Below are positions 13,383 through 35,340 of a stretch of 64,000 nt of DNA, piece after piece. The notes beneath the pieces are model-generated. The model was not told the DNA's origin and searched no databases. It worked only from the letters and a program-made list of their open reading frames with translations. The position numbers were made by a program, and so were the translations under genes. Position 1 is the first letter of the stretch. Each line of letters starts with the position of its first letter. Source of the DNA: Alphaproteobacteria bacterium (GTDB taxonomy: Bacteria; Pseudomonadota; Alphaproteobacteria; UBA2966); contig JABIFY010000092.1 in NCBI GenBank assembly GCA_018650465.1, positions 79,477-143,476 of the forward strand, in the 5' to 3' direction.

Positions 13383-14891
13383 TCAGCCATAAATATCCCG
13401 CAGCTTCCGCTTGAAGATTTTCCCGGAATCATCGCGCGGTAATTCTTCCACGAATATTACCTGGCGCGGGATCATATAGGCAGCAATCCGCTCCCGCAGA
13501 AAATCATTTACCTGTGTCTGATCCATAACTACTCCCGGTTCCGGCAAGATGGCGGCTACGACTTGCTCGCCAAATTCTGCATGGGGCAAGCCAAAGACGG
13601 CGCAATCATGAATCCCCTTGTGATCAAACAGGGCCGCTTCGATTTCTGCTGGATAGATATTCACACCACCTGAAATCACCATGTCCTTTTTGCGGTCAGA
13701 AATATAAAGATAGCCGTCCGCATCCAGATAACCGATATCACCACAGGTAATCAGGCCGTCAATTTCAACATCGGCGCGGGCCTGGGGATTGCCCTGATAG
13801 GTGAAGTCCGGAATGGGATGCAGGCGGCCAAAAATCTCACCTGCTGTGCCGGTCGGACATTCATTTCCGTCTTCATCCAGAATGCGAATTGTGGCATCGG
13901 GCACGGCCTTGCCCACCGTACCCGGATGGGCAAGGGCATCTTCACTGGTGCAATAGGTAATTGCACCCGTTTCTGTGCCGCCGTAATATTCAAACAACAC
14001 CGGTCCCCACCAGTTTATGATGGCGCCTTTGACATCGGGAGGGCAGGGGGCTCCGGCGATGACGATGTGTTTGAGGGAAGAAATATCATATTTCGCCCGC
14101 ACATCATCCGGCAGTTTCAGCAGGCGGATCAGCATGGTCGGCACCATGAAGGAATGGCTGATTTTGTGTTCTTCGATCAGTCGCAAGGTATCTTGGGCAT
14201 CAAAGCGCGGCGCGATAACAATTTCGCCGCCCACATAAAATGTCGACATGGCGGCCCGGTTGGGGGCGCTGTGATACATGGGCGCGGTCAGCAATAAACG
14301 CGCTTCGGGTACAAAGGAGCCATGATTGCCTTTGGTCGTCACCGCCGTCGCACCCAAGCGCTTGACGCCTTTGGGTTTGCCGGTCGTGCCCGATGTATAG
14401 ATCATCGCTGACCGTGGTTGCGGCGGATCACCCTGCCATGATGCTTGAGCTGCGATCCAGTCATGCCAGTTCAGGGTGTCATCCAGGGCGGTGCAATCCG
14501 CTGTGTTCAGGCCAAAGGCTTCGATCAATTCAAGCGGTGTTTCAACGGCAACCACCGTGATGCCCTGCATCATGTCGGCGGCCATTTGCGGGGCCAGGGT
14601 GCGCCAGATATCGGCATGCACAACCAGGGCTTTTGCCCCGCTGTCAGCCAGGATGTGGGTCGCTTCATCGGCGGTGTAGTGCCAGTTCACCGGCGTCGCT
14701 GTCGCCTCCAGCATGGACGCTGCCAGGGTGGCCACAATGAAAGGAAAATCATTGCGCAGCATAATGGCGACCGTATCGCCAGGTGTTACGCCTGCTGCGG
14801 CAAAACCCGTCGCGGCCTGTCCGGCTTGTGCCCGAATTTGCGCGTGGCTGATTTCACGCGCACCACTGATCAGTTTCTTGGCATCTGTCAT
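13383..14891 (-). CDS. AMP-forming acyl-CoA synthetase (ligase 1)
   Basis: This 502-residue ANL-superfamily enzyme activates an acid to its CoA thioester through an acyl-adenylate. Motifs: P-loop MIYTSGTTGKPKGVKR, ALF/EYYGGTETG adenine-binding block, GYLDADGYLYISDRKKD, and the C-terminal catalytic Lys in RDDSGKIFKRKLRDIYG. The N-terminal part (MLRNDFPFIVATLAASMLEATATPVNWHYTADE) resembles feruloyl-CoA and long-chain acyl-CoA synthetases of catabolic operons. It is the last gene of the seven-gene minus-strand operon, 9 bases after the hydratase gene. The acid it activates cannot be predicted with confidence. Confidence 0.9.
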   Translation of the reverse strand: MTDAKKLISGAREISHAQIRAQAGQAATGFAAAGVTPGDTVAIMLRNDFPFIVATLAASMLEATATPVNWHYTADEATHILADSGAKALVVHADIWRTLAPQMAADMMQGITVVAVETPLELIEAFGLNTADCTALDDTLNWHDWIAAQASWQGDPPQPRSAMIYTSGTTGKPKGVKRLGATAVTTKGNHGSFVPEARLLLTAPMYHSAPNRAAMSTFYVGGEIVIAPRFDAQDTLRLIEEHKISHSFMVPTMLIRLLKLPDDVRAKYDISSLKHIVIAGAPCPPDVKGAIINWWGPVLFEYYGGTETGAITYCTSEDALAHPGTVGKAVPDATIRILDEDGNECPTGTAGEIFGRLHPIPDFTYQGNPQARADVEIDGLITCGDIGYLDADGYLYISDRKKDMVISGGVNIYPAEIEAALFDHKGIHDCAVFGLPHAEFGEQVVAAILPEPGVVMDQTQVNDFLRERIAAYMIPRQVIFVEELPRDDSGKIFKRKLRDIYG

Positions 14892-14900
14892 CGTTTGGCG

Positions 14901-15680
14901 TCAGCGTCCCTTGAATTCAGGTTTACGGCTTTCCGAAAAGGCCCGCACACCTTCTTCAAAATCTGCACTGTTGAAGGCCAGACTTTGAGAAGATGCTTCC
15001 AGTCGCAAGCTGTCTTCCAGCGTGCCGGTGCGGGCAGCTTCGATTTCCGCCTTGATCAAGCCCAAGGCCTTGGTCGGCCCGGACGCCAGGCGTTTGGCCA
15101 GTTTGCGGGCCTCATCCATCAAGTCCTCGTCTTCCACCACATTAAAAGCGAGGCCCCATTCATAGGCTGTGTCAGCATCAATGCTGCCGCCCAGCATGGC
15201 CAGGGCCGTGGTCCGGGCGGCACCAATTTTGTGGGTCAGGAAGGCAGAAGACCCGCCATCCAGAACGGCGCCGATTTTGGCAAAAGACAGATGAAATTTT
15301 GCTGACTGGGCCGCAATAATAAAATCTGAGGCCAGGGCAAGGCTGAACCCGGCACCGGCCGCCGCACCATTGACGGCGGCGATAATCGGCACAGGAATGT
15401 CACGCATCAAGCGGATCACCTGGTTGGTGCCAGCCTTGATCTGTCCTTCGATCAAGGGGCGACGTTCCAGTATGGTGCCAAGGTCAAGATCGGCACCAGT
15501 GCAAAATCCGCGACCACTGCCGGTCAGCAAAATTGCACGCACGGTCTGTTTGTCGGTTTCCGCCGTCAGTTCCCGCAGGATGCCGTTGCGCATGTCGTTG
15601 GACATGGCGTTTAACACTTCAGGCCGGTTCAAGGTCAGGGTCAGCACATCGCCGTCCCGGTCTACCAGGATGTCAGTCAT
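14901..15680 (-). CDS. Enoyl-CoA hydratase/isomerase family protein
   Basis: The 259-residue crotonase-fold protein shows LTLNRPEVLNAMSNDMR, the oxyanion-hole segment LTGSGRGFCTGADLD, and AAVNGAAAGAGFSLALASDFIIAA. At the first usual catalytic-Glu region it reads FAKIGAVLDGGSSAFL; the second Glu position of classic hydratases is not acidic here. It may therefore be an isomerase or a hydrolase-type member, not a standard hydratase. ATG 15680 follows AAGGACC. A palindromic element separates it from the upstream thiolase in the same operon. Confidence 0.88.
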   Translation of the reverse strand: MTDILVDRDGDVLTLTLNRPEVLNAMSNDMRNGILRELTAETDKQTVRAILLTGSGRGFCTGADLDLGTILERRPLIEGQIKAGTNQVIRLMRDIPVPIIAAVNGAAAGAGFSLALASDFIIAAQSAKFHLSFAKIGAVLDGGSSAFLTHKIGAARTTALAMLGGSIDADTAYEWGLAFNVVEDEDLMDEARKLAKRLASGPTKALGLIKAEIEAARTGTLEDSLRLEASSQSLAFNSADFEEGVRAFSESRKPEFKGR

Positions 15681-15839: not shown

Positions 15840-17045
15840 CTAAACGCCCTCTTTGCCCACAATGGTTAGTGAACAAATGTTCTGGTGCGGGAAGCCGCCC
15901 AGATTGTGCGCCATGCCGATGGTCGGTTCTTCGCTGCGCTGGCGTTCACCGGCGCGGCCGTTCATTTGCAGGTACATTTCATAGATCATGCGCAAACCCG
16001 AGGCCCCGATGGGGTGGCCAAAGCACTTCAGGCCGCCATCGATCTGACAGGGGATTTCGCCGTCGGCATCAAAAAAGCCATCCATGATATCGTTCACGGC
16101 CCTGCCCTCATCCGAAATATACAGGTCTTCCATGGTCACCAGTTCGGTGATGGAGAAACAATCATGCACATCAAACAGGCTGACCTGTTTGCGCGGATTG
16201 TCGATCCCGGCTTCTTTATAGGCACGGGCCGCCGCGTGACGGGTGGTGGCAAAATAGCTGCCGTCCCAGGAATTGTGCTGGGCTTCGGTGCCGTTGGAAC
16301 CAGACAACTGCATGGCCTTGATGGTGACCAGGTCTTTTTTGCCCATGGACTTGGCGATTTCAGGCGTGGTCACAATGGCGCACGCGGCACCATCACTGAC
16401 ACCGCAGCAATCAAATAACCCCAAGGGATCGGCAATCATTGGCGCGTTCATGACCTTGTCTTCGGTGATCTTGTTGCGCAGATGGGCCTTGGGGTTTTTC
16501 GAACCATTGTCATGGCTTTTGATGGAGACATGCGCCATGGCCCGCTTCAGGTCCTTGGCACTGACACCAAATTTGGACGTATAGGCGGTGGCCAACTGGG
16601 CGAATGATCCAGGGGCCGAGGCATTGGCCCAGAACATGTCGTTGACCGAACCCCGGTTGCGCTGGGGCAGGCCGCCATAGCCGGTGTCTTTCAGTTTTTC
16701 CACACCCATGGCGAGGGCGATATCGCAAGCGCCGGAGGCCACGGCGTATACCGCACCACGGAATGACTCTGATCCGGAAGCACAGTAGTTTTCCACCCGT
16801 GTGACCGGGATATAGGGCAGGCGCAAAGCCATGGACAACGGCACGGCGGACTTACCGACATGCTGTTCCTCAATACCGGTACCGAGCCAGGCGGCGTCGA
16901 TCTGGCTTTTTTCAATGCCCGCATCGCCAATGGCTTCAACAAAGGCTTCGACCATCAGGTCTTCCGCATTGTCGTTCCAGCGTTCGCCAAAATTCGAACA
17001 ACCCATGCCAAGGATCGCGACTTTATCTTTAATACCTGTTGCCAT
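15840..17045 (-). CDS. Thiolase (SCP-x / acetyl-CoA acetyltransferase type)
   Basis: The 401-residue thiolase has the acylated Cys in RVENYCASGSESF (C88), DVHDCFSITE in the middle of the C-terminal half, and the catalytic His in KCFGHPIGASG. The overall pattern is that of SCP2/SCP-x-like thiolases found in sterol side-chain, branched-chain and archaeal pathways, not the classic FadA/PhaA type. It cleaves 3-ketoacyl-CoA to acetyl- or propionyl-CoA. It sits 2 bases behind the HMGS-like/DUF35 gene. DUF35 proteins often form complexes with thiolases of this type, so the two probably work together. Confidence 0.9.
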   Translation of the reverse strand: MATGIKDKVAILGMGCSNFGERWNDNAEDLMVEAFVEAIGDAGIEKSQIDAAWLGTGIEEQHVGKSAVPLSMALRLPYIPVTRVENYCASGSESFRGAVYAVASGACDIALAMGVEKLKDTGYGGLPQRNRGSVNDMFWANASAPGSFAQLATAYTSKFGVSAKDLKRAMAHVSIKSHDNGSKNPKAHLRNKITEDKVMNAPMIADPLGLFDCCGVSDGAACAIVTTPEIAKSMGKKDLVTIKAMQLSGSNGTEAQHNSWDGSYFATTRHAAARAYKEAGIDNPRKQVSLFDVHDCFSITELVTMEDLYISDEGRAVNDIMDGFFDADGEIPCQIDGGLKCFGHPIGASGLRMIYEMYLQMNGRAGERQRSEEPTIGMAHNLGGFPHQNICSLTIVGKEGV

Positions 17046-17047
17046 GA

Positions 17048-18535
17048 TTATTCTCCCTTATTGGTTTTTTGGCTCGCCAGAGCTTCATCTGTTGGTGTCG
17101 CTTTCCAGAAATAGCGCCGGAAACCGCGATTGTTATCATAATCCTTGACCCTGAACATCATGCGCATGCTCATGCCGACCTGCAATTCAAAATCGGGGGC
17201 GATGTCGCAAATGTCATTCATCAAACGACCGCCGCCGTCAAACTGGATCATACCGTAATAGGACGGGGGATCCGGGCTGTAGGTCAGTTTATCAGCCGTA
17301 TAAGAATTCAGGTGAGAAATCTTGTCGGCAAAGGGATGATCTTCCTGGGTGCCAACTTCCCCACAATCCGGGTTCACGCAGATATTGGATTTGGGAAATT
17401 GCGGCGTATCACACGCGGTACAAAGGCCACCAACAAAACGCTGGGCCATGTGCTTGTTGCGATACAAGGTCGTCAGGCCGGTGTTCTTGTCGGTTTCTGC
17501 CCGAATACCACGCTCCATATTGATCAGACCGTTGAAGGCGAGGAAGCGGTTGTAATTGGTCTCTTCGCGGCGACGGGCCAGATGGCCCGTAATACCTCGG
17601 CGAGCGGGATATGATGCCAGGGCATCGGTGGCTTCGAACAACAAGGCATCACAGCCCTGGCCAAAACCTGCCACCAGAATCTTGTCACCGGGTTTGGCGT
17701 GTTCCAGGGCATGAACCAGCATAACCACAGCGTGGGCGGCACCGATCTCACCGCAATTGGCTTGCAGGTTGTCGGCGACCGCATCACCGGGAATGCCGAG
17801 GTTCTTGGCCAACATGCCTGCAACCCGCGCCATGGCGACAGGGAAACAGAAAGTCGAGATATCTTCTGCTTTGACGCCGGTTTTTTCCAGCAAGGCATTA
17901 ATCGCCGCCGGGGCAATTTTCAGATAACCCTCGTCCCTGATCCAGCGTTCTTCCCAGCCATAATCATAATTGTTGTTTTCATCACGATAGTGATCAACAA
18001 AGTCGACGGCTTCCGTATGGCTGCCCAGGTGTTTGGCAATCACATTTCCCTGGCCCAGCAACAAGGCCGCTGCACCATCGCCCGTTGTCATTTCCAGCGG
18101 ACTGGCCGCTTTGGTGCGGCGCTTGTCTGATGTCACCAGAAGTGTCGTATTGTTTGCGGCAGCAGATGTTTGCAAGGCAATGCTTAAGCCTGACGTGCCC
18201 GCCCGTTGGGACGACCCTACATCCAGCGTCATGATGCCACTTTTCAAGGCCAACACGTCGGCGACGATGCCGGCGTTCTGACGATCCTGAAAGGGAAAGG
18301 TGGTTGAGGCCATATAGACCGCCGCGATGTCGTCGCGATCGAGGCCCGTCATGCAGTCGCGCGCGGCTTCCACGGACATGGTGACCGTGTCTTCGTCCCA
18401 GTTGGCCATGGCGCGCTCACCTTTGGCAAGCCCGCGCAAGCCCGGTGCAAACCAGGTGTGGGCCTTGGCGATTTCGCTGCGCTGTAGTCGGCTTTGCGGG
18501 ATATATCCCCCATAAGCCAGAATACCGGTGTCCAT
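17048..18535 (-). CDS. HMG-CoA synthase-like protein fused to a C-terminal zinc-ribbon/OB-fold (DUF35) domain, catalytic residues replaced
   Basis: This 495-residue protein has a thiolase-fold N-terminal region (1-310; MDTGILAYGGYIPQSRLQ, TTGDGAAALLLGQG, QANCGEIGAAHAV, LVAGFGQGCDALLFE). A DUF35 domain follows with a rubredoxin-like Cys4 site (C372, C375, C386, C391) and an OB-fold (about 405-490). In HMG-CoA synthases and KAS III the nucleophilic Cys lies in an ACxAGT-like turn; here the turn reads DVGSSQRAGTSG, with Q110 at that position. The His of the FHSP-type motif appears as Cys (STFCFPVA, C230). The domain is thus probably not a normal synthase and may be a structural or CoA-channelling partner of the thiolase downstream. 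Confidence 0.85.
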   Translation of the reverse strand: MDTGILAYGGYIPQSRLQRSEIAKAHTWFAPGLRGLAKGERAMANWDEDTVTMSVEAARDCMTGLDRDDIAAVYMASTTFPFQDRQNAGIVADVLALKSGIMTLDVGSSQRAGTSGLSIALQTSAAANNTTLLVTSDKRRTKAASPLEMTTGDGAAALLLGQGNVIAKHLGSHTEAVDFVDHYRDENNNYDYGWEERWIRDEGYLKIAPAAINALLEKTGVKAEDISTFCFPVAMARVAGMLAKNLGIPGDAVADNLQANCGEIGAAHAVVMLVHALEHAKPGDKILVAGFGQGCDALLFEATDALASYPARRGITGHLARRREETNYNRFLAFNGLINMERGIRAETDKNTGLTTLYRNKHMAQRFVGGLCTACDTPQFPKSNICVNPDCGEVGTQEDHPFADKISHLNSYTADKLTYSPDPPSYYGMIQFDGGGRLMNDICDIAPDFELQVGMSMRMMFRVKDYDNNRGFRRYFWKATPTDEALASQKTNKGE

Positions 18536-18568: not shown

Positions 18569-18979
18569 TCAGGTCGCTGGATTGTCTTTGAGACGTCGAA
18601 AACTGCCGGTGGCTGATGCGATTAGTTTGTTATCGCCATCAACAATTTCGCCTTCGGCAAAAAAGATTGTTTTCCCGCCGCCAGTTACGCGTGCGTTGGC
18701 GCGCAGCAATGGGCCTTTCAACGGGCTTATGAAATTGCTGGTCAGGGTAATGGTCATGCACAGACGCCGACCTTCAGGCGGTGCCCGATAACAGCCACTC
18801 ATGCCAAGGACATAATCCAGTCCGGCCAGCAGAACCCCGCCATGGGCAATGCCGAGACCATTCAGATGATCCCCTGTCATGTTCAACTCGGCTGAGGCCT
18901 TGCCGACTTCCCATTCCACCAGGCGGAAGCCGACCAGTTTGTTAAAGCCAACAGGTGTTGTCAAATCGAAGGTACTCAA
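18569..18979 (-). CDS. PaaI-type hotdog thioesterase
   Basis: The 136-residue single-hotdog protein has GDHLNGLGIAHGGVLLAGLDYVLGMSG, the family block with the catalytic Asn/Gly and Asp positions, then LTSNFISPLKGPLLRANARVTGGGKTIFFAEGEI. PaaI-like thioesterases hydrolyse stalled acyl- or aryl-CoAs and release CoA during catabolism. Its ATG overlaps the stop of ligase 2 (ATGA, 18976-18979). Confidence 0.88.
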   Translation of the reverse strand: MSTFDLTTPVGFNKLVGFRLVEWEVGKASAELNMTGDHLNGLGIAHGGVLLAGLDYVLGMSGCYRAPPEGRRLCMTITLTSNFISPLKGPLLRANARVTGGGKTIFFAEGEIVDGDNKLIASATGSFRRLKDNPAT

Positions 18980-20538
18980 ATTTTATTCTCCGCCAGATAA
19001 GCTTTTCGCAATTCCGATTTCATGATCTTGTTGACACTGGACAATGGCATGGGTTCGGTGCGGATGGTCACAGCCCGCGGGCATTTATAATGCGCCAGAC
19101 TTTCCCGACACCAGTCAATGATTTCCTGCTCAGCAACACTGGCCCCGGCAACAAGGGTAATGACCGCATGCACCGCTTCACCCCAATGTTCATCGGGCAG
19201 GCCGATGATGGCATTTTCGCTCACGGCCGGATGCAGGGACAGAACATTTTCGATTTCGATGGGATAGATGTTTTCACCGCCTGAAATGATCATATCCTTG
19301 ATCCGCCCCGTCAGGAACAAAAACCCGTCCTCGTCGAAATAGCCACTGTCCCCGGTATGGAACCAGCCACCTCGCATGGCCTGGGCTGTCATTTCCGGAC
19401 TGTTCAGATAGCCCTTCATGACGTGCGGGCCACGGGTCACGATTTCACCGGTTTCACCAGGTGCCAGGAAGTTGTCTTCTTCGTCGACGATTCGGGCGTC
19501 CACATGACCAACAACTTTGCCAACAGATTTCAGCTTGGTCGCCATCGGCCCATCCAGGGCGTGGTGATGGGTTCCCAGCACAGTGAGCAAAGGCGATGTT
19601 TCCGTCATGCCAAAACCCTGGCAGAATTCAGCATTGGGCAGAAGTTTCATGGCTTTTTGCATCAGCGCCACAGGCATGGGGGATGCGCCATAGGTAATCA
19701 GGCGGACCGACGTCAGGTCATGCTTGGCAAAATCGGGATGGGCGAGGAACATCGTCAGCATAGTTGGCACCATCTGGATGGTATCAACCTTGAATGCCGG
19801 GACCAGACGCAGCACTTCAGTTACTTCAAATTTCGGCAGGATAATTGTGTGGGCACCGAGGAAGGCCGCCCAGAACAGGCGGGCCCCTGCCGCCAGGTGA
19901 AACAGCGGGCCATACAGCATATGGGTTTCGCCTTCCAGAAAACCGTATGCCGCAATGCCGCCGATGGTATTGGCGAAGATGTTGGTGTGGCTCAGCATCA
20001 CACCTTTGGACTGGCCTGTGGTGCCGCCCGTATAAAAGATCAACAATGTGTCATCGTCACTGCTGGACAGGCTGTCAAAATCAACCGATTCCGGGTCCGC
20101 CAGCAATACATCTTCCAGTGACAGCATGCCCTCCGGGGCGGGGCCATGCCCGGCGTGGATCAAGGTTTCGATGAAGGGGCAGTTTTCAGCAACTGCTTTG
20201 GCCTCATCAATAAAGCTGTCGTCAACGATTAGTACCTTTGGCCGGCAATCATTGGCGCAGGCAATCATCTCAGGCACGGCAAGCCGGTTGTTGATCGCCA
20301 CCAGCGCGGCACCGATCCGCGAGGGCACAAAATAGCATTCGAAAAACCAATGGCTGTTCAATCCCAAAAATGCCACTTTGTCTTCAGGCCGGATACCAAG
20401 GCCATACAATCCGGCGGCCAACCCCTGACAACGGGTTTCGGTTTCCGCCCAGGTAAAGGTCTTGTCCTCGAACGTGAGAGACGGCTGGTCTCCCCAGTGC
20501 CAGGCTGCCTTGGTTAACGTATCAGCAAGGCGGATCAT
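18976..20538 (-). CDS. AMP-forming acyl-CoA synthetase (ligase 2)
   Basis: The 520-residue ANL enzyme carries the P-loop LLIFYTGGTTGQSKGVMLSH, the block GFGMTETSPLL, the hinge SGYFDEDGFLFLTGRIKDMIISGGENIYPIEIE, and the C-terminal catalytic Lys in LSSVNKIMKSELRKAY. It is most like medium/long-chain or aromatic acyl-CoA ligases. A second ligase in the same operon suggests two substrates or two activation steps (for example before and after side-chain removal). It starts at the last base of the dehydrogenase stop codon (TAATG). Confidence 0.9.
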   Translation of the reverse strand: MIRLADTLTKAAWHWGDQPSLTFEDKTFTWAETETRCQGLAAGLYGLGIRPEDKVAFLGLNSHWFFECYFVPSRIGAALVAINNRLAVPEMIACANDCRPKVLIVDDSFIDEAKAVAENCPFIETLIHAGHGPAPEGMLSLEDVLLADPESVDFDSLSSSDDDTLLIFYTGGTTGQSKGVMLSHTNIFANTIGGIAAYGFLEGETHMLYGPLFHLAAGARLFWAAFLGAHTIILPKFEVTEVLRLVPAFKVDTIQMVPTMLTMFLAHPDFAKHDLTSVRLITYGASPMPVALMQKAMKLLPNAEFCQGFGMTETSPLLTVLGTHHHALDGPMATKLKSVGKVVGHVDARIVDEEDNFLAPGETGEIVTRGPHVMKGYLNSPEMTAQAMRGGWFHTGDSGYFDEDGFLFLTGRIKDMIISGGENIYPIEIENVLSLHPAVSENAIIGLPDEHWGEAVHAVITLVAGASVAEQEIIDWCRESLAHYKCPRAVTIRTEPMPLSSVNKIMKSELRKAYLAENKI

Positions 20539-21683
20539 TAACCCCTACCTACCAACTCACGGCCGATGATTTCGCGCATGATTTCGCCGGTACCGCCTGC
20601 CAGGCGGGACTGGCGGCCATCGGCCCAGGCGCGAGCGATGGGGTATTCCCACATATAGCCATAGCCGCCAAACAGTTGCAGGCATTCGTCCAGCAATTCC
20701 ATCATCAATTCTGACGACAGCATTTTGCACATGGCAGCATCATTGGCGTCCAGTTTGCCTTCCAGGTGCATGGCGATGCAGCGATCAACAAAGACGCGCA
20801 TCATGGTCGATTTTGAATGCACTTCGGCCAGTTTAAATCGTGTGTTCTGAAACGAGGCAACTGTTTTACCAAAGGCCTGGCGGTCGCGCACATAGTCTAC
20901 GGTCCATTCCAGTCCAGCCTCGATCACGGAGGCACAGCGAATGCCTTGCAACAGACGTTCCTGCGGTAGTTGTTCCATCAGCTGTACAAAGCCGTTGCCT
21001 TCGATGCCGACGATATTGCTGACGGGAACCCGCACTTCATCGAAGAACAATTCGGACGTGTCCTGGGCTTTCCAGCCGATCTTTTCCAGGTTGCGGCCCT
21101 TTTTGAATCCGGCCCGGTCGGCTTCCACAAGAATCAGGCTGACGCCCTTGGCCCGTTCGTCGGACGTACGGCAAGCGACAATAACGATATCAGCCGTCTG
21201 GCCATTGGTAATGAAAACCTTCTGTCCCGAAATCACATAATCATCGCCATCGCGCACTGCTTTGGTTTTTAGATTGGCGAGGTCCGAACCACCCGATGGA
21301 TCGGTCATGGCGATGGCGCCGATAATTTCGCCCGTAACCATCTTCGGTAGCCATTTTTGTTTCAGGTCTTCCGAGGCATATTTCAACAGATAGGGGGCAA
21401 CGATATCTGAATGCAAGGCAAAACCTGGTCCCATGGCACCGACACGGGCCAATTCTTCCAAGACAACGGCGCTGTATAAGAAATCTGCCGCCGGGCCGCC
21501 ATATTCTTCAGGGATCGTGGCGCACAACAGGCCCTGTTCTCCGGCCTGCAACCAGGCTTCACGGCTGATCTGGCCGTCCTTTTCCCATTGTTCATGAAAA
21601 GGCGTAACCTTGTCGGCGATAAATTTGCGCACGGAATCGCGGAAGACTTCGTGGTCGCTGGAATAGAGGTCCCGTTCAAACAT
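20538..21683 (-). CDS. Acyl-CoA dehydrogenase
   Basis: From ATG 21683 the protein has 381 residues, the usual length. Motifs: EEYGGPAADFLYSAVVLEEL, the FAD-binding AIAMTDPSGGSDLANLKT, QKVFITNGQTADIVIVACRT, and the C-terminal LQLFGGYGYMWEYPIARAWADGRQSRLAGGTGEIMREIIGREL. It oxidises acyl-CoA to 2-enoyl-CoA, with electrons passing to ETF. The longer frame to 21746 has a non-family N-terminus. First gene of the minus-strand operon, divergent from the SDR gene. Confidence 0.93.
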   Translation of the reverse strand: MFERDLYSSDHEVFRDSVRKFIADKVTPFHEQWEKDGQISREAWLQAGEQGLLCATIPEEYGGPAADFLYSAVVLEELARVGAMGPGFALHSDIVAPYLLKYASEDLKQKWLPKMVTGEIIGAIAMTDPSGGSDLANLKTKAVRDGDDYVISGQKVFITNGQTADIVIVACRTSDERAKGVSLILVEADRAGFKKGRNLEKIGWKAQDTSELFFDEVRVPVSNIVGIEGNGFVQLMEQLPQERLLQGIRCASVIEAGLEWTVDYVRDRQAFGKTVASFQNTRFKLAEVHSKSTMMRVFVDRCIAMHLEGKLDANDAAMCKMLSSELMMELLDECLQLFGGYGYMWEYPIARAWADGRQSRLAGGTGEIMREIIGRELVGRG

Positions 21684-21759
21684 CTTGTTTGCCTGTCTTC
21701 TCGCTGTTTGTGAATTTGTGTTGACTGACGCAGATGCTAAGGTCATGGTAATTAATAAG

Positions 21760-21831: not shown

Positions 21832-22752
21832 ATGTCGGAAGAAGGTTTGTTGGCTGGAAAAGTGGCCCTGGTCACGGGTGCTGGACGTGGCGTGGGCAAG
21901 GAAATTTCCCTGTTAATGGCGCAACACGGCGCAAAGGTTGTGGTCAACGATCTGGGCGGAACCGGTGCCGGTGAAGGCGAAGATACCGCCCCGGCCCAGG
22001 AAGTGGTCAATGAAATCAAGGCAAATGGTGGCGAAGCCGTTGCCAACTTTGATTCCGTCGCCGACTTCAAGGCCGCCCATGGCATGGTCGAACAGGCCCA
22101 GGATGAATTTGGTGGCCTGGATATCGTTGTCAACAATGCCGGTATCCTGCGCGACGCCATTTTCCACAAGATGACCGAAGAAGACTGGGATCAAGTGATT
22201 TCAGTTCACCTGAAGGGCGCGTTCAGCGTCAGTCGGGCTGCCGCCGACGTCTTCCGGGCGCAAGAATCCGGCCGCATGATCCACATGACCTCGACATCCG
22301 GTCTGATCGGTAACTTTGGCCAGTCCAACTATGCCGCCGCCAAGTTAGGCATTGCGGCCCTGTCCAAATCGATCGCCCTGGACATGGCACGTTATAATGT
22401 GACTTCCAACGCCATCGCACCTTTTGCCTGGTCGCGTTTGATTGGCACTATTCCGATCACAAACGAAGCCGAACGAGTTCGGATTGAACGCATGAAGCAA
22501 ATGACCCCGGCTAAAATCGCCCCGGTTATTGTCGCCCTGTCCGCGGATGCCGCCCAGCACGTTACGGGCCAGATTTTTGCCGTACGTGGCAGCGAAGTTA
22601 TGCTGATGGGGCAATCCCGACCCCTGCGCTCCATGGGTCGTCCCGATGGCTGGACACCGGAAACTGTGTTGGAGCATGTCTTTCCGGCCATGGAAACGGC
22701 GTTTTATGATCTCGACCGCTCCGGCGACATCTTTACCTGGGATCCGATTTAA
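21832..22752 (+). CDS. Short-chain dehydrogenase (17-beta-HSD4 / MFE-2-like)
   Basis: From ATG 21832 (GGGAGA upstream) the protein has 306 residues. It shows TGAGRGVG (NAD binding), DLGGTGAGEGED, VNNAGILRD, the catalytic Ser block IHMTSTSGL and the active site YAAAK. The DLGG insert and the C-terminal extension after residue 250 are typical of the 3-hydroxyacyl-CoA dehydrogenase domain of multifunctional enzyme type 2. It would oxidise 3-hydroxyacyl-CoA to 3-ketoacyl-CoA, the step before the thiolase, and it stands directly before a MaoC hydratase, recreating the two MFE-2 domains as separate genes. Confidence 0.9.
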   Translation: MSEEGLLAGKVALVTGAGRGVGKEISLLMAQHGAKVVVNDLGGTGAGEGEDTAPAQEVVNEIKANGGEAVANFDSVADFKAAHGMVEQAQDEFGGLDIVVNNAGILRDAIFHKMTEEDWDQVISVHLKGAFSVSRAAADVFRAQESGRMIHMTSTSGLIGNFGQSNYAAAKLGIAALSKSIALDMARYNVTSNAIAPFAWSRLIGTIPITNEAERVRIERMKQMTPAKIAPVIVALSADAAQHVTGQIFAVRGSEVMLMGQSRPLRSMGRPDGWTPETVLEHVFPAMETAFYDLDRSGDIFTWDPI

Positions 22753-22763
22753 GGGGCAATTCG

Positions 22764-23624
22764 ATGGAATTCGATTACGACAAAATCAAGAACCGGCATT
22801 TTGATGATGTGGAACAAACCTATTCGGTGCGCGACAGCATCATCTATGCCTTGGGGTTGGGCTTTGGCCACGATCCCCTGGACGAAAGTCAGTTGCCGTT
22901 CCTGTTCGAAGAATCAGACTTCAACGCCGTGCCGACATTTTCGGTTGTCCTGGCGGGTCCCGGCTTCTGGGCACGTGAACCTGATACCGGCATTGTCTGG
23001 CAAAAAGTTTTGCATGGCGAACAAAAGATCGCCATTCACAAAACCTTGCCGCCGGCCGCCACCGTCATTGGCAAAACAAGGGTCACGGAAATTCTCGATA
23101 AAGGTGCCGACAAGGGTGCCTTGATCTATACGGATCGGGAATTGTTTGACAAAGCCACTGGCGATCATCTGGCGACCCTGACGTCGACGACGTTTGCCCG
23201 TGGCAATGGGGGCTTTGGTGGGGAAAGTGGGCCGCAGCCGCAGCCGCATGTCATTCCTGATCGGGAACCTGATGCGGTTTGCGATTTGCCAAGCCACGCC
23301 TCGGCTGCCTTGTTGTATCGTTTGTCTGGTGACTTGAATCCCCTGCATATTGATCCGACTGTCGCCAAGGGTGCCGGTTTCAAGGCCCCCATCCTGCACG
23401 GCTTGTGCAGTCTTGGCATGGCCGGGCACGCCGTACTGCGGACATATTGTGATTATGACGCCAGCCGTTTCAAAAGCCTGAAGCTGCGTTTCTCCAGCCC
23501 GGTCTACCCCGGGGAGACCATTCGCACAGAAATGTGGAAGGACGGCAATGTCATTTCCTTCCGCTCCCGGGTGATTGAACGGGACGTGGTTGTGCTGAAT
23601 AACGGCTGTGTCGAGATCAGTTAA
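22764..23624 (+). CDS. MaoC-like enoyl-CoA hydratase 2
   Basis: The 286-residue double-hotdog protein begins with a dehydratase-like first half (YDKIKNRHFDDVEQTYSVRDSIIYALGLGFG). The hydratase-2 motif is in the second half, LYRLSGDLNPLHIDPTVAKGAGFKAPILHGLCSLG, with the catalytic Asp/His in GDLNPLHID. Such enzymes hydrate 2-enoyl-CoA to (R)-3-hydroxyacyl-CoA. It follows the SDR by 11 bases, so both form the second half of a peroxisomal-type beta-oxidation route. The upper operon also has a crotonase-type protein. Confidence 0.92.
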   Translation: MEFDYDKIKNRHFDDVEQTYSVRDSIIYALGLGFGHDPLDESQLPFLFEESDFNAVPTFSVVLAGPGFWAREPDTGIVWQKVLHGEQKIAIHKTLPPAATVIGKTRVTEILDKGADKGALIYTDRELFDKATGDHLATLTSTTFARGNGGFGGESGPQPQPHVIPDREPDAVCDLPSHASAALLYRLSGDLNPLHIDPTVAKGAGFKAPILHGLCSLGMAGHAVLRTYCDYDASRFKSLKLRFSSPVYPGETIRTEMWKDGNVISFRSRVIERDVVVLNNGCVEIS

Positions 23625-24124: not shown

Positions 24125-24928
24125 ATGCTCGATAAGAATCAGATCAGTGAAATCGCCCTTAAACTGAAGGAGGCCGAGGTCAAGCGTGAGCAGATCGGTC
24201 ATATTACGCTGGCTTACCCCGAGATCACCATTGAAGATGCCTATGCGGTCCAGCGCGAACTGGTGGCCCTGAAATGTGCTGAAGGCCGCAAGATTGTTGG
24301 CCACAAAATTGGCCTGACCTCACGGGCTATGCAGATGTCCGTGGGCATTAACGAGCCGGACTACGGTGCGCTACTGGATGATATGGTTTTCGAAGAAGGC
24401 AGCGATATTCCCCATGACCGGTTTGTTGAACCGCGTCTGGAAGTCGAACTGGCTTTTATTTTAAAGGACCGTCTGGAAGGTCCCGGTGTGACCATCACGG
24501 ATGTGCTGTCGGCCACCGATTACATCTTGCCGGCCCTGGAAATCATCGATGCCCGCATATTGCGCAACGATCCGGAAACGGGTGCATCGCGCAAGGTAAT
24601 GGATACCATTTCAGATAATGCCTCTAACGCCGGTGTGGTTCTGGGGGGTCGTCCCGTCAAGGCGGATGCCATTGATCTGCGTTGGGTCTCGGCGTTGCTT
24701 TTTCAGAACGGCGTAATCGAAGAGACAGGCGTATCGGCCGGTGTGTTGAACCACCCCGCCAAAGGCGTCGCCTGGCTTGCCAACAAATATGCCGCCCACA
24801 AAATTGGCCTTGAACCTGGACAAATTATATTGTCCGGATCATTCACCCGCCCGGTTTTTGTCCATCCAGGCGATACCTTGCATGCAGATTATGGCCCTCT
24901 GGGATCAATTGCCTGCCGGTTTGTTTAA
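24125..24928 (+). CDS. hpaH: 2-oxohept-4-ene-1,7-dioate hydratase
   Basis: This 267-residue enzyme belongs to the vinylpyruvate hydratase branch of the FAH superfamily. Motifs: [53 protein letters not shown] with the metal-binding Glu residues, [11 protein letters not shown], and [32 protein letters not shown]. It hydrates 2-oxohept-4-ene-1,7-dioate to 4-hydroxy-2-oxoheptanedioate in the homoprotocatechuate pathway. The gene is convergent with hpaR, 3 bases apart. The homologous MhpD/XylJ hydratases act on smaller substrates; the neighbours decide for HpaH. Confidence 0.9.
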
Positions 24929-24931
24929 GGC

Positions 24932-25378
24932 TTAGATCTTCTCATCGACCTCTGTCAGTAATTTGTGCAACTGATCCATTTTTTTTGCCCCGATACGACT
25001 CTCGATGTCGAGATATTCTGCTTCGGACTGCTGTCCAATCTTTGCTACCAGGGCGGCGCCCTTTTTGCTGATTGACAGCAAAAAGGCGCGTTGATCGTCC
25101 TGTTCCATACGTCTTGAGATCAGGCCGCGCTGTTCCAACCCTTTGATGGTACGCGACAGGCTGGGTGGACTGAGCAAGGTTGATTTGGAAACATCAACCG
25201 CGCGTAATTCATTGGCTGAGGTCAGGGCGCGTAAAATTCTGAACTGTTGTTCGGTGATGTCATGGGCGCGCAAAATGGGACGAAAGCGGTTCATGACTGT
25301 ATCGCGTGCCCGTAACAAAGCCATGGGGAGAGAACGACCATAGCCGCGAAAGGCAGGCTCGTTCTCCTTGCCGGTCAT
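24932..25378 (-). CDS. hpaR: Homoprotocatechuate operon regulator HpaR (MarR family)
   Basis: The 148-residue regulator begins with the HpaR-typical RGYGRSLPMALLRARDTVMNRFRPILRAHDITEQQFRILRAL and has the winged helix TLLSPPSLSRTIKGLEQRGLISRRMEQDDQRAFLLSISKKG. HpaR represses the hpa genes and is released by 4-hydroxyphenylacetate or homoprotocatechuate in enteric bacteria. Its start overlaps the stop of the FAH gene (25375-25378), so the two are co-transcribed. The likely target is the direct repeat at 26292-26319. Confidence 0.9.
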   Translation of the reverse strand: MTGKENEPAFRGYGRSLPMALLRARDTVMNRFRPILRAHDITEQQFRILRALTSANELRAVDVSKSTLLSPPSLSRTIKGLEQRGLISRRMEQDDQRAFLLSISKKGAALVAKIGQQSEAEYLDIESRIGAKKMDQLHKLLTEVDEKI

Positions 25379-26241
25379 GCGGGGAACTCGTCCACGATCT
25401 TGTTCCGTAAGATACCCACGCCTTCGACTTCCACTTCAACGTTGTCACCGGGCTTGAGGTATTTGGGCGGATCAAAACGCGCACCGGCACCAGTGGGCGT
25501 GCCTGTGGCGATGATGTCGCCGGGGTGCAGTTCCGTGAATGTGGAAATGTAGTTGATCAGATAGGGGATGGGGAACATCATGCTGGCCGTGGTGTCGTCC
25601 TGGCGAACCTCGCCATTGACCCGCGTGGTGACCCGCAGGTTCAGCATATCAGGCATCTCGTCCATGGTCACAAACCACGGGCCCATGGCCCCGGAACGAT
25701 CAAAGTTTTTGCCTTGTGTGACGTTAAATTTGGCGTGCCGAATCCAGTCCCGCAAGGTGCCTTCATTCATGATGGTCACCCCGGCCACATGGTCCAGCGC
25801 CTGGTCCTCGGCGATGCGGCGGCCGCCCTTGCCAATGACCAGAACGATTTCACCTTCGTAATCCAGCTGGTCAGATTCGGGCGGGCGGTGGATGTCTTCG
25901 CCCTGGGCCACCAGGGATTGTGGCGTACGCATGAACAGGGACGGAAAGCCTGGGTCCTGGCTGCCATCTTTGTATTCAGCGTTACGATTGGCGTAATTGA
26001 CCCCCACACATATGGTCATGCGCGGATTGGGCACGGGACGCAGCAAGGTCACATCTGCGAGGTCATAATCAGCGTCTGCTGTTGATGCAGCTCCTTGCAA
26101 TTCAGGCAAGGCATCAGCTTCCAGCACAGCCCGCATATCAGGAAAACGGTCTGCAAACTGTTTTGACAAGTCGATAACCCGATCATTGATGACCGTACCG
26201 TATCCGGCCTTGCCTGATTTTTCGAATGAAATGAATTTCAC
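25375..26241 (-). CDS. Fumarylacetoacetate hydrolase-fold isomerase/decarboxylase of the homoprotocatechuate pathway (HpaG-like)
   Basis: The 288-residue protein has an N-terminal cap (MKFISFEKSGKAGYGTVIND) and a FAH catalytic domain from about 75: RPVPNPRMTICVGVNYANRNAEY, DYEGEIVLVIGKGGRRIAEDQALDHVAGVTIMNEGTLRDWI and GTPTGAGARFDPPKYLKPGD. The DYEGE Glu pair and downstream Asp are metal ligands. In E. coli HpaG two such domains are fused and perform decarboxylation and isomerisation; here there is one domain. It either does both or shares the task with another gene elsewhere. Divergent from hpaF. Confidence 0.85.
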   Translation of the reverse strand: MKFISFEKSGKAGYGTVINDRVIDLSKQFADRFPDMRAVLEADALPELQGAASTADADYDLADVTLLRPVPNPRMTICVGVNYANRNAEYKDGSQDPGFPSLFMRTPQSLVAQGEDIHRPPESDQLDYEGEIVLVIGKGGRRIAEDQALDHVAGVTIMNEGTLRDWIRHAKFNVTQGKNFDRSGAMGPWFVTMDEMPDMLNLRVTTRVNGEVRQDDTTASMMFPIPYLINYISTFTELHPGDIIATGTPTGAGARFDPPKYLKPGDNVEVEVEGVGILRNKIVDEFPA

Positions 26242-26291
26242 GTTGCTGTCTCCTGATTATTTTCTTGACCAAAGGTCTGTCTGAACGTTAT

Positions 26292-26333
26292 TTAACATAT
26301 CAACAGTTAACATATCAACTAAATTCTTGATAT
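26292..26333. promoter_or_regulatory. hpaR: Candidate HpaR operator in the divergent hpa promoter
   Basis: TTAACATATCAAC is repeated perfectly at 26292-26304 and 26307-26319, 15 bases apart. An inverted half, TTGATAT at 26327-26333, pairs with ATATCAA of the second copy. The sites lie between hpaG-like and hpaF, close to both starts, so binding would repress both directions. Assignment to HpaR is inferred from position. Confidence 0.6.
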
Positions 26334-26345
26334 CGGGAGCATCGA

Positions 26346-26747
26346 TTGCCACATTTCATCATCGAATATTCTGCCAATCTGGCAGACAAGGTTGATATTG
26401 GCGATGTCTTGTCGGCTGTCCAGGTGGCGGCCTTGAAGACAAAGGTTTTCCCTCTCGGCGGGTTGCGGGTCCGGGCCTTTCGCTGTGATGATTTTCTGGT
26501 CGCCGATGGCCATCCTGACAATTGTTACCTGCATATGACCCTGCGTATGGGACATGGCCGCGAGCCTGATGTCAAAAAGGCAGCCGGAGAAGCCGTCTTC
26601 GCCGCCTTGTGTGACAGCTTGGCTGATGCATATGACAAAAACGCCCTGGCCATTTCCTTCACCATTGATGAATTGGACCCGGTGCTGAATTTCAAGAAGA
26701 ACAATCTACATGAAGTCGTGGCCGCACGGGCAGGAAGTAAGGATTAA
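26346..26747 (+). CDS. hpaF: 5-carboxymethyl-2-hydroxymuconate delta-isomerase
   Basis: The 133-residue tautomerase-fold protein starts (L/M)PHFIIEYSANL, with the catalytic Pro as second residue, and has VFPLGGLRVRAFRCDDFLVADGHPDNCYLHMTLRMGHGRE and ISFTIDELDPVLNFKKNNLH. These are the CHMI (HpcD/HpaF) signatures. It isomerises 5-carboxymethyl-2-hydroxymuconate to 5-oxopent-3-ene-1,2,5-tricarboxylate. The start is TTG 26346, preceded by GGGAG, and Pro directly follows, which fixes the start well. hpaE follows after 2 bases. Confidence 0.9.
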   Translation: MPHFIIEYSANLADKVDIGDVLSAVQVAALKTKVFPLGGLRVRAFRCDDFLVADGHPDNCYLHMTLRMGHGREPDVKKAAGEAVFAALCDSLADAYDKNALAISFTIDELDPVLNFKKNNLHEVVAARAGSKD

Positions 26748-26749
26748 AC

Positions 26750-28270
26750 ATGTCGACCCTGGATGAAAATCTCGCGAAAGCGCAAACATATCTTGATGGA
26801 TATCGCGAGTCAGGTGTTGAAAACCTGATTGATGGCCAGTCATTACCAGCGTCGTCGGGGGATACGTTCGAGACCATATCACCGGTCGATCTCAAGCCGC
26901 TGGCCTCTGTGGCTCAAGGGACGGCCGCGGATATTGATCGCGCCGCCAAGGCCGCGACCAAAGCCTTTCCCGCCTGGGCCGCAATGCCGGGCAAGGAACG
27001 CAAGGCTATCTTGCATCGCATCGCCGATGCGATTGTTGAACGGGCCGAGGAAATCGCGTTTCTGGAAAGCCTGGATACGGGGCAGTCCATCCGCTTCATG
27101 GCCAAGGCTGCCTTGCGCGGGGCTGAAAACTTCCGGTTTTTTGCCGATCAGGCACCCGGTGCCCGCGACGGCAAGACGCTTCACGGCCCCAACCAGATGA
27201 ATTTTACCACGCGCAAGCCCATTGGTCCGGTGGGCGTGATTACGCCCTGGAATACGCCTTTCATGCTCTCCACCTGGAAGATCGCACCGGCCCTGGCGGC
27301 GGGCTGTACAGTGGTGCATAAACCCGCGGAATTCTCCCCCATTACCGCGCGCCTGTTGGCCGATATTGCCCATGAGGCCGGTTTGCCACCAGGGGTCTGG
27401 AATGTGGTCAACGGTTTGGGCGAAGATGCGGGTCGTGCCCTGACAGAGCACCCCGACATCAAGGCCATTTCCTTTGTGGGCGAATCTCGCACGGGCCAGA
27501 TGATCATGGCCCAGGGGGCGCCAACCCTGAAACGCGTGCATTTTGAACTTGGCGGCAAAAACCCCTGTATCGTCTTTGCCGATGCTGATCTGGAGCGTGC
27601 CCTGGATGCCGCCGTCTTCATGATCTATTCCCTGAACGGTGAACGCTGTACCTCCTCCAGCCGTTTGCTGGTCGAAGAAAGTATCTATGACGACTTTACC
27701 GCCAAGGTGGCAGCGCGGGCGGGCAATATTAAAGTCGGGCATCCGCTGGACCCCGATACTGTGGTTGGCCCCCTGATCCACCCGACCCACGAAGAAAAGG
27801 TGCTGTCCTACTTTGACGTCGCCCGTGAAGAAGGTGCCACGATTGCCACGGGTGGTGCCAAGGCTGACGACGCACCTGGTGGCGGTTGTTATGTCCAGCC
27901 GACTTTGTTTACCGGGGCCCGCAACGACATGCGCATCGCCCAGGAAGAAATTTTTGGCCCGGTGTTAACGGCCATCCCGTTCAAGGATGAGGCTGACGCC
28001 CTGGCCCTGGCCAATGATGTGGATTACGGCTTGTCAGCCTATCTCTGGACCAGCGATGTGACCCGCAGCCTGCGCTTTGCAGACGCGCTGGATGTGGGCA
28101 TGATCTGGGTGAATTCAGAAAATATCCGCCACTTGCCATCGCCTTTTGGTGGTACCAAAGCCTCTGGCATTGGTCGGGATGGCGGCGATTATTCATTCGA
28201 CTTCTATATGGAAACCAAAAACGTGGCGATTGCCACATCAGACCACAAAATCCCGAAACTGGGCGGCTGA
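26750..28270 (+). CDS. hpaE: 5-carboxymethyl-2-hydroxymuconate semialdehyde dehydrogenase
   Basis: The 506-residue aldehyde dehydrogenase has FVGESRTGQMIM near the cofactor, the general base in HFELGGKNPCIVFADADLE, the catalytic Cys in YSLNGERCTSSSRLLVEESIYDDF, and EEIFGPVLTAIPF. Length and the start (VENLIDGQSLPASSGDTFETISPVD) match HpaE. It oxidises the ring-cleavage semialdehyde to the dicarboxylate with NAD+. It lies in the hpaFED order, 18 bases before hpaD. Confidence 0.93.
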   Translation: MSTLDENLAKAQTYLDGYRESGVENLIDGQSLPASSGDTFETISPVDLKPLASVAQGTAADIDRAAKAATKAFPAWAAMPGKERKAILHRIADAIVERAEEIAFLESLDTGQSIRFMAKAALRGAENFRFFADQAPGARDGKTLHGPNQMNFTTRKPIGPVGVITPWNTPFMLSTWKIAPALAAGCTVVHKPAEFSPITARLLADIAHEAGLPPGVWNVVNGLGEDAGRALTEHPDIKAISFVGESRTGQMIMAQGAPTLKRVHFELGGKNPCIVFADADLERALDAAVFMIYSLNGERCTSSSRLLVEESIYDDFTAKVAARAGNIKVGHPLDPDTVVGPLIHPTHEEKVLSYFDVAREEGATIATGGAKADDAPGGGCYVQPTLFTGARNDMRIAQEEIFGPVLTAIPFKDEADALALANDVDYGLSAYLWTSDVTRSLRFADALDVGMIWVNSENIRHLPSPFGGTKASGIGRDGGDYSFDFYMETKNVAIATSDHKIPKLGG

Positions 28271-28288
28271 TCGCATAAGGAAAAGACC

Positions 28289-29134
28289 ATGGGAAAACTG
28301 GCACTGGCCGCAAAGATTACACATGTACCGTCTATGTATTTGTCGGAACAACCCGGCAAAAATCATGGCTGCCGCGAGGCGGCGATTGAGGGGCATCGGG
28401 AGATATCCCGGCGCTGTCGTGATTTGGGTGTGGACACGATTGTGGTGCTGGATACGCACTGGCTGGTCAATGCAGGCTATCATGTGAATTGCTGCGAAAC
28501 ATTCGAAGGCACCTATACCAGCAATGAATTGCCACATTTCATCAAGGACATGTCTTATGAATATGATGGCAACCCGGCCCTGGGCCGGATCATTGCCGAG
28601 GTCGCGACCGTGGAAGGTGTTCCAACCCGCAGCCACGAAATAGACAGCCTTAATCTGGAATATGGCACCCTTGTGCCCATGCGTTACATGAACGAAGACC
28701 GCCATTTCAAGGTGGTTTCCATTCCGGCCTGGTGTGCCTGGCATGAACTGGATGACAGTCGTCTTTTTGGTGCAGCATTGTTGAAAGCCATCGAACAAAG
28801 CGACAGCACAGTGGCTGTCTTTGCCAGTGGTTCCCTGTCACACAGGTTTAATGACAATGGCAGCCCGGAAGAATCCATGCATCAGATCAGTGATGAATTC
28901 TATGCCCAGGTCGACCATCGCGTGGTGGAATTATGGAAAGCCGGTGACTTCAAGACTTTCTGTGCCATGTTGCCGACTTATGCCGATAAATGCGTCGGCG
29001 AAGGTGGCATGCATGACACGGCCATGTTGCTGGGTATGTTGGGTTGGGACAGTTACGACAAGGGTGTTGAAATTCTGACGGACTATTTCCCCAGTTCAGG
29101 TACCGGCCAGATCAACGCCATTTTTCCGCTCTAA
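28289..29134 (+). CDS. hpaD: 3,4-dihydroxyphenylacetate 2,3-dioxygenase
   Basis: The 281-residue LigB-type extradiol dioxygenase has early metal/acid-base residues in KITHVPSMYLSEQPG and VVLDTHWLVNAGYHVNCCETFEG, plus FASGSLSHRFNDNG in the second half. This is the type III family of E. coli HpaD, which uses Fe(II) (or Mn) to open the ring of homoprotocatechuate between C2 and C3. It defines the pathway of the cluster. ATG 28289 follows AAGGAAAAG. Confidence 0.93.
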   Translation: MGKLALAAKITHVPSMYLSEQPGKNHGCREAAIEGHREISRRCRDLGVDTIVVLDTHWLVNAGYHVNCCETFEGTYTSNELPHFIKDMSYEYDGNPALGRIIAEVATVEGVPTRSHEIDSLNLEYGTLVPMRYMNEDRHFKVVSIPAWCAWHELDDSRLFGAALLKAIEQSDSTVAVFASGSLSHRFNDNGSPEESMHQISDEFYAQVDHRVVELWKAGDFKTFCAMLPTYADKCVGEGGMHDTAMLLGMLGWDSYDKGVEILTDYFPSSGTGQINAIFPL

Positions 29135-30300: not shown

Positions 30301-32211
30301 ATGTCGGAAAATAACGAACAAAAAGGCGGCGTTTCACGCCGCGAGCTGCTGGGCAACACGACCAAGGTCGCAACGCTGGCAGGTATCGGTGCAGCCGCTG
30401 GTGTCGGCACCATGATCACGCCAGCCCAGGTGCGGGCTGCGTCAAAAAACCGGGCCGAAGTCGCTCCGGGTGACCTCGACGAATATTATGGCTTCTGGTC
30501 GGGTGGCCAGTCCGGTGAAGTGCGTGTCCTTGGCATGCCGTCCATGCGTGAACTCATGCGTATTCCGGTCTTCAACAGGGAAAGCGCCACAGGTTGGGGC
30601 CAGACCAACGAAAGCCTCAAGATCATGACGGAAGGTCAATTGCCGCATGAAAAAGAATTTCTGAAAGACAAGGGTGGCATTCATCACAACGGTGATACCC
30701 ATCACCCGCATATGTCCTTTACCGATGGCACTTATGACGGTCGTTATGTCTTTATCAACGATAAGGCCAACACTCGTGTTGCTCGCATTCGCTGCGACAT
30801 CATGAAGGTCGACAAGATGATTTCGATCCCGAACGCAGCCGATATTCACGGCCTGCGTCCGCAGAAATATCCGCGTACCGGTTATGTCTTCTGCAACGGC
30901 GAGCATCGCGTGCCTATGCCAAACGATGGTCGTGATCTGGAAAACGATAAAGAATATCACGCCGTCTTCAGTGCCATTGATGGCGACACCATGGAAGTGG
31001 CCTGGCAGGTCATGGTCGATGGTAACCTGGATAACGTTGATGCCGATTACCAGGGCAAATACGCCATTGCCAGTTGCTATAACAGTGAAGAAGGCCTGAC
31101 TCTGGAAGACATGACGTCTGCAGAAGCTGACTGGGCTGTGATCTTTGACATCAAGGCCATTGAAGCTGGCGTTAAAGCCGGTGACTTCAAGACCTATGAA
31201 GGCAAGACACCTGTTCTGGATGGCCGCCACGGTTCGAAATATACCCGTTATGTGCCGATCCCCAACAGTCCGCACGGTGTGAACGCCACGCCTGACGGCA
31301 AATACATGATGATCAATGGTAAACTGTCTCCGACAGTTTCCATCATTGAAATGGCTAAAGTGCCAGACTTGTTCGCTGACAAGATCAAGCCACGTGGTGT
31401 GATCGTTGGTGAACCGGAATTGGGCCTTGGTCCGCTTCATACAGCCTTTGATGGTCGCGGCAATGCCTACACCACTTTGTTCCTCGACAGCCAGGTCTGT
31501 AAGTGGAACATCGAAAAGGCAATTCAGGCCTTTGCCGGTAAAAAAGTGAACCCGATCATGGAGAAGATCGACGTTCAATATCAGCCGGGTCACAACCATA
31601 CGTCCATGGGTGAAACCAAGAATGCCGATGGTCAGTGGCTTATTTCATTGAACAAGTTTTCGAAAGATCGCTTTATCAATGTGGGGCCGCTGAAGCCTGA
31701 AAATGAACAGTTGATCGACATCTCCGGTGACAAGATGAAGATTGTGCATGATGGTCCGACCTTTGCGGAACCTCATGATTGCATGATCGTGCATCGCTCA
31801 CTGGTTAACCCAAACAAGGTCTACGAACGTAACGATCCGATCTGGTCGGACGCACAGGCCTGGGCCGATAAAGATGGTGTTGATCTGGAAGATGCTGAAC
31901 ACGTCATTCGTGACGGCAACAATGTTCGTGTTTACATGACCTCTATTGCACCGAAGTTCAGCATGGAGAAATTCAAGGTCAAACAGGGTAATGAAGTGAC
32001 GATCTTCGTTACCAATATGGATGATCTCGATGATCTGACCCACGGCTTCACGCTTGCCAACTATGGCGTTTGCATGGAAGTCGGACCACAGGCCACAGCA
32101 TCCGTGACCTTCACGGCAGGTCTGCCAGGTGTTCACTGGTTCTATTGTCAGTGGTTCTGTCACGCACTCCACATGGAAATGCGCGGCCGGATGCTGGTCG
32201 AAAAAGCCTAA
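30301..32211 (+). CDS. nosZ: Nitrous oxide reductase, Tat-exported (clade I type)
   Basis: The 636-residue precursor has a Tat signal ([20 protein letters not shown]), which marks the clade I (typical) enzyme. The propeller half contains the CuZ-site His cluster ([19 protein letters not shown]) and further His in [22 protein letters not shown] and [10 protein letters not shown]. The cupredoxin C-terminus has the CuA ligands in [17 protein letters not shown]. It reduces N2O to N2 in the periplasm. Codon use is rich in GGT/GTT/CGT, as expected for strong expression. First gene of nosZDFYLX. Confidence 0.98.
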
Positions 32212-32236
32212 AGGCTGGAAGAAAGAAGGTAACCAG

Positions 32237-35339: not shown

Positions 35340-35340
35340 C

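Follow-up and report, generated by a model that had tools for sequence, protein, structure and literature searches.

The closest described relatives of the locus analysed here are enzyme complexes in which a protein of the KAS III/HMG-CoA synthase (HMGCS) fold accompanies a thiolase-fold protein and a DUF35 protein. In the heterododecameric PhlABC of Pseudomonas protegens (PpATase; 5M3K, 5MG5) and its Chromobacterium counterpart (CsATase; 9SKH), which C-acylate phenols in the synthesis of antibiotics, the subunits are encoded as separate proteins. The catalytic Cys and Glu are replaced in PhlA by Gly115 and Cys83, and ATase activity requires expression of the entire operon. PhlA, PhlB and PhlC line a single cavity, in which the substrate is contacted by PhlC alone and Cys88 of PhlC is the catalytic residue (PMC6392133); a C88S mutant of the CsATase PhlC is dead (PMC12955522). 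PhlA was termed an inactive member of the thiolase superfamily, possibly a chain-length regulator, as early as 2010, when fusions of DUF35 to thiolase-superfamily, SDR and SCP2 domains were also noted (PMC2954200). The multi-component acyltransferase MucABC of Streptococcus macacae (9VBO, 9VBT) likewise contains a separate HMGCS-like subunit lacking the Cys, with Glu at that position and distant in sequence from the protein analysed here, and streptococcal muc clusters make tetramic acids; we identified 9VBO as MucABC via a fold search, and a literature search found no paper that names this entry. The archaeal thiolase/HMGCS/DUF35 complex has the same three domains, although its HMGCS still has the catalytic residues (Cys114, Glu82, His and Asn) and supplies HMG-CoA to the mevalonate route. 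DUF35 is also bound to catabolic enzymes of the SCP2-thiolase fold in the steroid aldolases Ltp2-ChsH2 and Sal-Shy and in the benzoylsuccinyl-CoA thiolase BbsAB, but these have no HMGCS-like subunit, and catalysis in Ltp2 and Sal relies on Tyr pairs or Tyr/Cys rather than on the Cys/His set of thiolases.

On the minus strand of the window (the whole 64,000-nucleotide stretch that was analysed), an intact ORF occupies 17048-18535, reading from 18535 to 17048. Its 495-residue product is KAS III/HMGCS-like in its N-terminal part and carries a zinc ribbon and OB fold of the ChsH2/DUF35 type at its C-terminus. The Pfam families ACP_syn_III_C, zf-ChsH2 and OB_ChsH2_C all match above cut-off. The DUF35 part (residues 365-481 approximately; 17093-17443, minus strand) has both PF12172 and PF01796 over cut-off together with the ribbon cysteines C372, C375, C386 and C391, and a 62-sequence profile matches it to 6ESQ_E (E=1.2e-15) and PhlB (E=7e-12). 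The best solved relatives by sequence are PhlA (5M3K, 4.7e-30, strengthened to 3.3e-55 with the 62-sequence profile), the Chromobacterium homologue (9SKH), archaeal HMGCS (6ESQ_I) and 9VBO, and an AlphaFold model (mean pLDDT 89.5, pTM 0.91) gives CsATase, PhlA, archaeal HMGCS and MucABC as top Foldseek matches; each of these top matches is a subunit of a thiolase-type complex. An earlier sequence-only reading had described the gene as an HMGCS-like/DUF35 fusion that retains a Cys4 zinc ribbon and an OB domain, and the Pfam, PDB and Foldseek matches and the model agree with it on both points. The gene is under purifying selection (dN ~0.09 and dS ~1.16 against an 85 % identical orthologue; dN/dS ~0.08). 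All four ribbon cysteines are kept in 132 of 166 fused relatives. We note that 23 of the 83 close relatives have partly lost the zinc-ligand cysteines of DUF35, with the other conserved residues of the domain staying in place.

The synthase half lacks the residues expected of an active enzyme. Q110 (codon 18206-18208, minus strand, as are all codons given here), within SSQRAGTSG, falls exactly on the nucleophile Cys of archaeal HMGCS 6ESQ (ADLEFACKAGT) in an alignment with 6ESQ and FabH, and in the AlphaFold model it sits at the nucleophile elbow, in the loop joining strand 102-106 to helix 112-127. The sequence-only reading had put Q110 at this position, and it was right that both Cys and His are gone, but it misassigned the His by two residues: it had chosen C230 (FCFPVA), whereas the catalytic His of HMGCS and FabH aligns with P232 (17840-17842). 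Two further losses that it did not list are those of the HMGCS catalytic Glu, replaced by T78 (18302-18304), and of the KAS/HMGCS catalytic Asn, replaced by E263 (17747-17749). PhlA differs in detail, having Gly and Gln where the window protein has Gln and Pro. In the 83 close relatives, position 110 is occupied by Gln (68), Leu (10), Arg (3) or Met (2); Pro stands at position 232 in 81 of them, Asp or Glu at 263 in 81 and Thr at 78 in 77. D105 and G262 are present in all 83 and H268 in 80; near-invariant motifs of the family include WDED and RYFWKA. The cysteines of the synthase half each occur in at most 75 % of these relatives, the most frequent being C61, which lies in a helix (61 of 83), and C230, C261 and C295 are present in 40, 39 and 45.

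These replacements extend through the family. Our set of 166 DUF35-fused relatives, drawn from genome contigs, from plasmids and from genomes of Pseudomonadota and Desulfobacterota, spans Pseudomonadota, Desulfobacterota, Actinomycetota and one haloarchaeon, and includes proteins of Rhodococcus, Mycobacterium avium (on a plasmid), Streptomyces and Haloarcula. The catalytic Cys at 110 is found in none of the 166, and Glu is likewise found in none, His in two and Asn in 24, all four residues being absent in 140, although these figures are counts rather than independent events because sampling is uneven and many of the sequences are related. Loss of the catalytic residues is thus family-wide and above chance. 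Position 110 is Gln in 78 of the 166, with Leu, Arg, Met, Thr, Val, Pro and others in the wider family, and such variation fits lost catalysis without defining a function for the site. In six relatives a Cys stands one residue before the nucleophile position (e.g. NCLRAGT), the elbow residue itself being non-Cys. Some unfused relatives encoded beside a thiolase (three of them) also lack the Cys; FabH- and MvaS-like proteins from the same searches (four) keep Cys, His and Asn and have no thiolase neighbour. In a quick tree, some deep forks of which are open, the state of the Cys requires at least two changes, and the PhlA/MucA group and the fused clade lie on separate branches near archaeal HMGCS.

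On these grounds the window protein is not assigned to the archaeal-type HMG-CoA synthases, all four of whose catalytic residues are replaced, and it scores below the HMGCS cut-offs (NF003274, 198 versus 244 bits; TIGR00748, 139 versus 353). It is not a KAS III (FabH) protein, as the Cys-His-Asn triad is missing, nor a KSQ protein or chain-length factor, since Gln is present in fewer than half of the fused relatives and the neighbours are beta-oxidation genes rather than those of a type II PKS or modular setting. It does resemble PhlA in having a KAS III/HMGCS fold without Cys and Glu and in being encoded with an active thiolase-fold protein and DUF35. An inactive HMGCS-like partner of a thiolase is therefore already known in kind from PhlA, and what differs here is the fusion to DUF35, where PhlA and PhlB are separate, and the catabolic setting; a literature search found no paper on the fused catabolic family.

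The thiolase gene (15840-17045, minus strand) lies 2 bases downstream of the pseudosynthase gene (17046-17047), as the sequence-only reading had it. PDB and NCBIfam matches identify its product as an SCP2/SCP-x-type thiolase (690 bits to NF004810), with the nucleophile Cys and the HDCF and GHP motifs of that class, and it is catalytically complete (C88, H294, C296 and H344). Among solved structures it is closest to the archaeal acetoacetyl-CoA thiolase (6ESQ_A, 2.4e-58), a far better match than PhlC (~1e-18 to 1e-20), to which it is only distantly related. The four catalytic residues are present in all of the 151 compared thiolases, a set that includes the archaeal 6ESQ chain and that very divergent thiolases would escape because it was gathered by similarity to this family. 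The pairing of the two genes is similarly widespread. Of the 78 same-strand pairs in a first sample, 61 are no more than 300 bases apart, many of them separated by 2 bases, and some relatives have their thiolase gene 0.3-6.6 kb off; in a second sample a nearby same-strand thiolase gene was found for 94 of 98 fused genes, and three of the 98 have none in the sequence stretch examined. When neighbourhoods of 80 loci were clustered, the thiolase was the only constant partner, the other context being variable. A mirror-tree comparison of the two families gives r=0.86, against 0.14 for the best of 500 permutations, shared species history being part of the correlation. Median identity to the window protein is 56 % for the fused gene and 72 % for the thiolase, and lower conservation of the former is as expected if the pseudosynthase is non-catalytic.

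The remainder of the operon is of beta-oxidation type. On the minus strand with the pseudosynthase and thiolase genes are those for an acyl-CoA synthetase (13383-14891), an enoyl-CoA hydratase/isomerase (14901-15680), a hotdog thioesterase (18569-18979), a second acyl-CoA synthetase (18976-20538) and an acyl-CoA dehydrogenase (20538-21746). Divergent from this operon, on the plus strand, are an SDR gene (21832-22752) whose product resembles the (3R)-hydroxyacyl-CoA dehydrogenase domain of MFE-2 (2ET6, E=2.8e-106; 17-beta-HSD4 1GZ6, E=2e-57) and a gene for a MaoC hydratase like MFE-2 hydratase 2 (22764-23624; 1S9C, E=6.3e-59; Pfam MFE-2_hydrat-2_N). In the same region, outside this operon, is an alpha-methylacyl-CoA racemase-like gene (4012-5100, plus strand), which received no name from NCBIfam and was named from PDB sequences (the 2-methylacyl-CoA racemase MCR, 411 bits); relatives of it with at least 30 % identity are found near the pseudosynthase/thiolase pair in four other loci. 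In peroxisomes, AMACR, MFE-2 and SCPx serve the beta-oxidation of branched-chain and bile-acid substrates (2-methyl-branched and steroid side-chain acyl-CoAs), and racemase-, hydratase-2-, (3R)-dehydrogenase- and SCP2-thiolase-like genes are likewise present within one region of the window, so that the substrates may resemble that class; to our knowledge, however, no HMGCS-like or DUF35 subunit takes part in the eukaryotic pathway. Directly adjoining the beta-oxidation cluster are genes of homoprotocatechuate degradation (HpaH, HpaG-like, HpaE and HpaD; 24125-29134), with two MarR-like regulators near, and farther along the window is an apparent nitrous-oxide reductase cluster, recognized by reading (NosZ with a Tat-type leader, NosD, F, Y, L and X-like; 30301-36890).

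A departure from this arrangement is seen at eight Desulfobacterota loci, where the pseudosynthase/DUF35 protein is joined to an MFE-2-type SDR in a single protein of ~800-914 residues and the thiolase is encoded by the next gene. Seven of the eight fusion proteins end in an SCP2-like stretch (confirmed by Pfam in the three that were scanned), and four of the loci encode upstream a MaoC-SDR-SCP2 protein (confirmed by Pfam in the one scanned), a domain set similar to that of MFE-2. By linking the dead synthase covalently to SDR and SCP2 domains, these natural fusions are evidence that it forms part of the beta-oxidation machinery.

We consider it likely, with a probability of about 0.8, that the window protein is a catalytically dead HMGCS/KAS III-fold and DUF35 protein that acts in an obligate complex with the adjacent, active SCP2-type thiolase, stabilising it and sharing its cavity. 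A non-catalytic thiolase partner is the best reading because catalytic residues are lost family-wide in the one protein and retained in the other, because the pairing is constant and because PhlA provides a precedent, although gene pairing alone is no proof of binding. In such a complex the thiolase Cys88 would perform the chemistry, a thiolytic cleavage of 3-oxoacyl-CoA substrates that are probably bulky or 2-methyl-branched, and the pseudosynthase and DUF35 parts would most likely stabilise the thiolase and complete a large shared acyl/CoA cavity adjoining its active site, the part that PhlA and PhlB play towards PhlC. The scaffold for the adjacent thiolase that the sequence-only reading proposed largely agrees with this; such a role has a precedent in PhlA, which has been shown to be non-catalytic yet required, and the likening of the protein to a chain-length factor in that reading is unsupported, because the setting is one of beta-oxidation and not of chain building.

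An extension of this explanation is that the dead site keeps its CoA-binding groove and channels 3-oxoacyl-CoA from the dehydrogenase to the thiolase in a beta-oxidation metabolon. We regard it as tentative, with the odds leaning against it. The Desulfobacterota fusions with thiolase next to them point this way, as do SDR and MaoC neighbours at several other loci, the holding together of hydratase and aldolase by DUF35 in ChsH2-Ltp2 and Shy-Sal (PMC12329534) and the position of CoA at the interface of all three archaeal proteins, as quoted in PMC6392133; PpATase, however, reportedly lacks the CoA-binding residues of the archaeal complex (PMC6392133), and the flexible linker in CtShy-CtSal was judged inconsistent with direct channelling (PMC12329534). 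That the pair instead works in biosynthesis, catalysing C-acyl transfer or a Claisen reaction in the manner of PhlABC or MucABC, seems very unlikely: it has the same three domains and the same residue loss as those systems, but the genes around it are typical of catabolism (ligases, an acyl-CoA dehydrogenase and hydratases), homologues occur in an estrogen-degradation-type cluster (compare PMC7793797) and near phenylacetate genes, and the thiolase is nearer to the archaeal enzyme than to PhlC.

Very unlikely, in our estimation, is that the protein is still an enzyme, using another nucleophile or using its Gln in the manner of the KSQ malonyl decarboxylases. The prevalence of Gln110 and H268 among the close relatives would be in keeping with this, as would the Cys at position 109 in six of the 166; against it, Gln is exchanged for many other residues in the wider family and both His and Asn are gone, on which grounds a KSQ-like role is rejected, as is the use of another Cys, since none in the synthase half is conserved and those at 109 are one residue off. 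Simple decay of a non-functional gene could account for the lost catalytic residues, but is scarcely credible for an intact ORF that is conserved across phyla with near-invariant motifs, and the dN/dS ratio rules out a pseudogene.

The non-catalytic partner reading bears on a gene that has been encountered before. In a study of estrogen degradation, the HMG-CoA-synthase-like EGO55_13555, next to the thiolase EGO55_13550, was left without a role and its condensing activity was doubted (PMC7793797). One of our loci, on plasmid p3 of Novosphingobium sp. ES2-1, has the gene order of the edc estrogen cluster and carries a gene of the indolepyruvate ferredoxin oxidoreductase family close by. Its pseudosynthase, which has Leu at the nucleophile position, is likely to be the counterpart of EGO55_13555; we thus offer a candidate answer for the role of that "HMG-CoA synthase". 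There are also consequences for annotation. Ten Desulfobacterota proteins exceed the cut-off of NF003274, "hydroxymethylglutaryl-CoA synthase", with 250-359 bits and yet lack Cys and Glu, and single Desulfobacterota genomes contribute as many as seven paralogues to the hits; bacterial mevalonate-pathway calls may therefore be wrong, because pseudosynthases can be annotated as HMGCS and NF003274 passes inactive ones. The findings imply a large family in which a dead synthase has turned into the constant partner of a degradative thiolase, within a gene set that can be likened to the peroxisomal MFE-2/SCPx route. At not quite even odds, this may represent a widespread and, to judge from the literature search, previously undescribed class of bacterial catabolic thiolase that needs a dead HMGCS-DUF35 protein, which would couple it to an MFE-2-type hydratase/dehydrogenase/SCP2 protein as a metabolon for branched or polycyclic acyl-CoAs, including those of the estrogen pathway.
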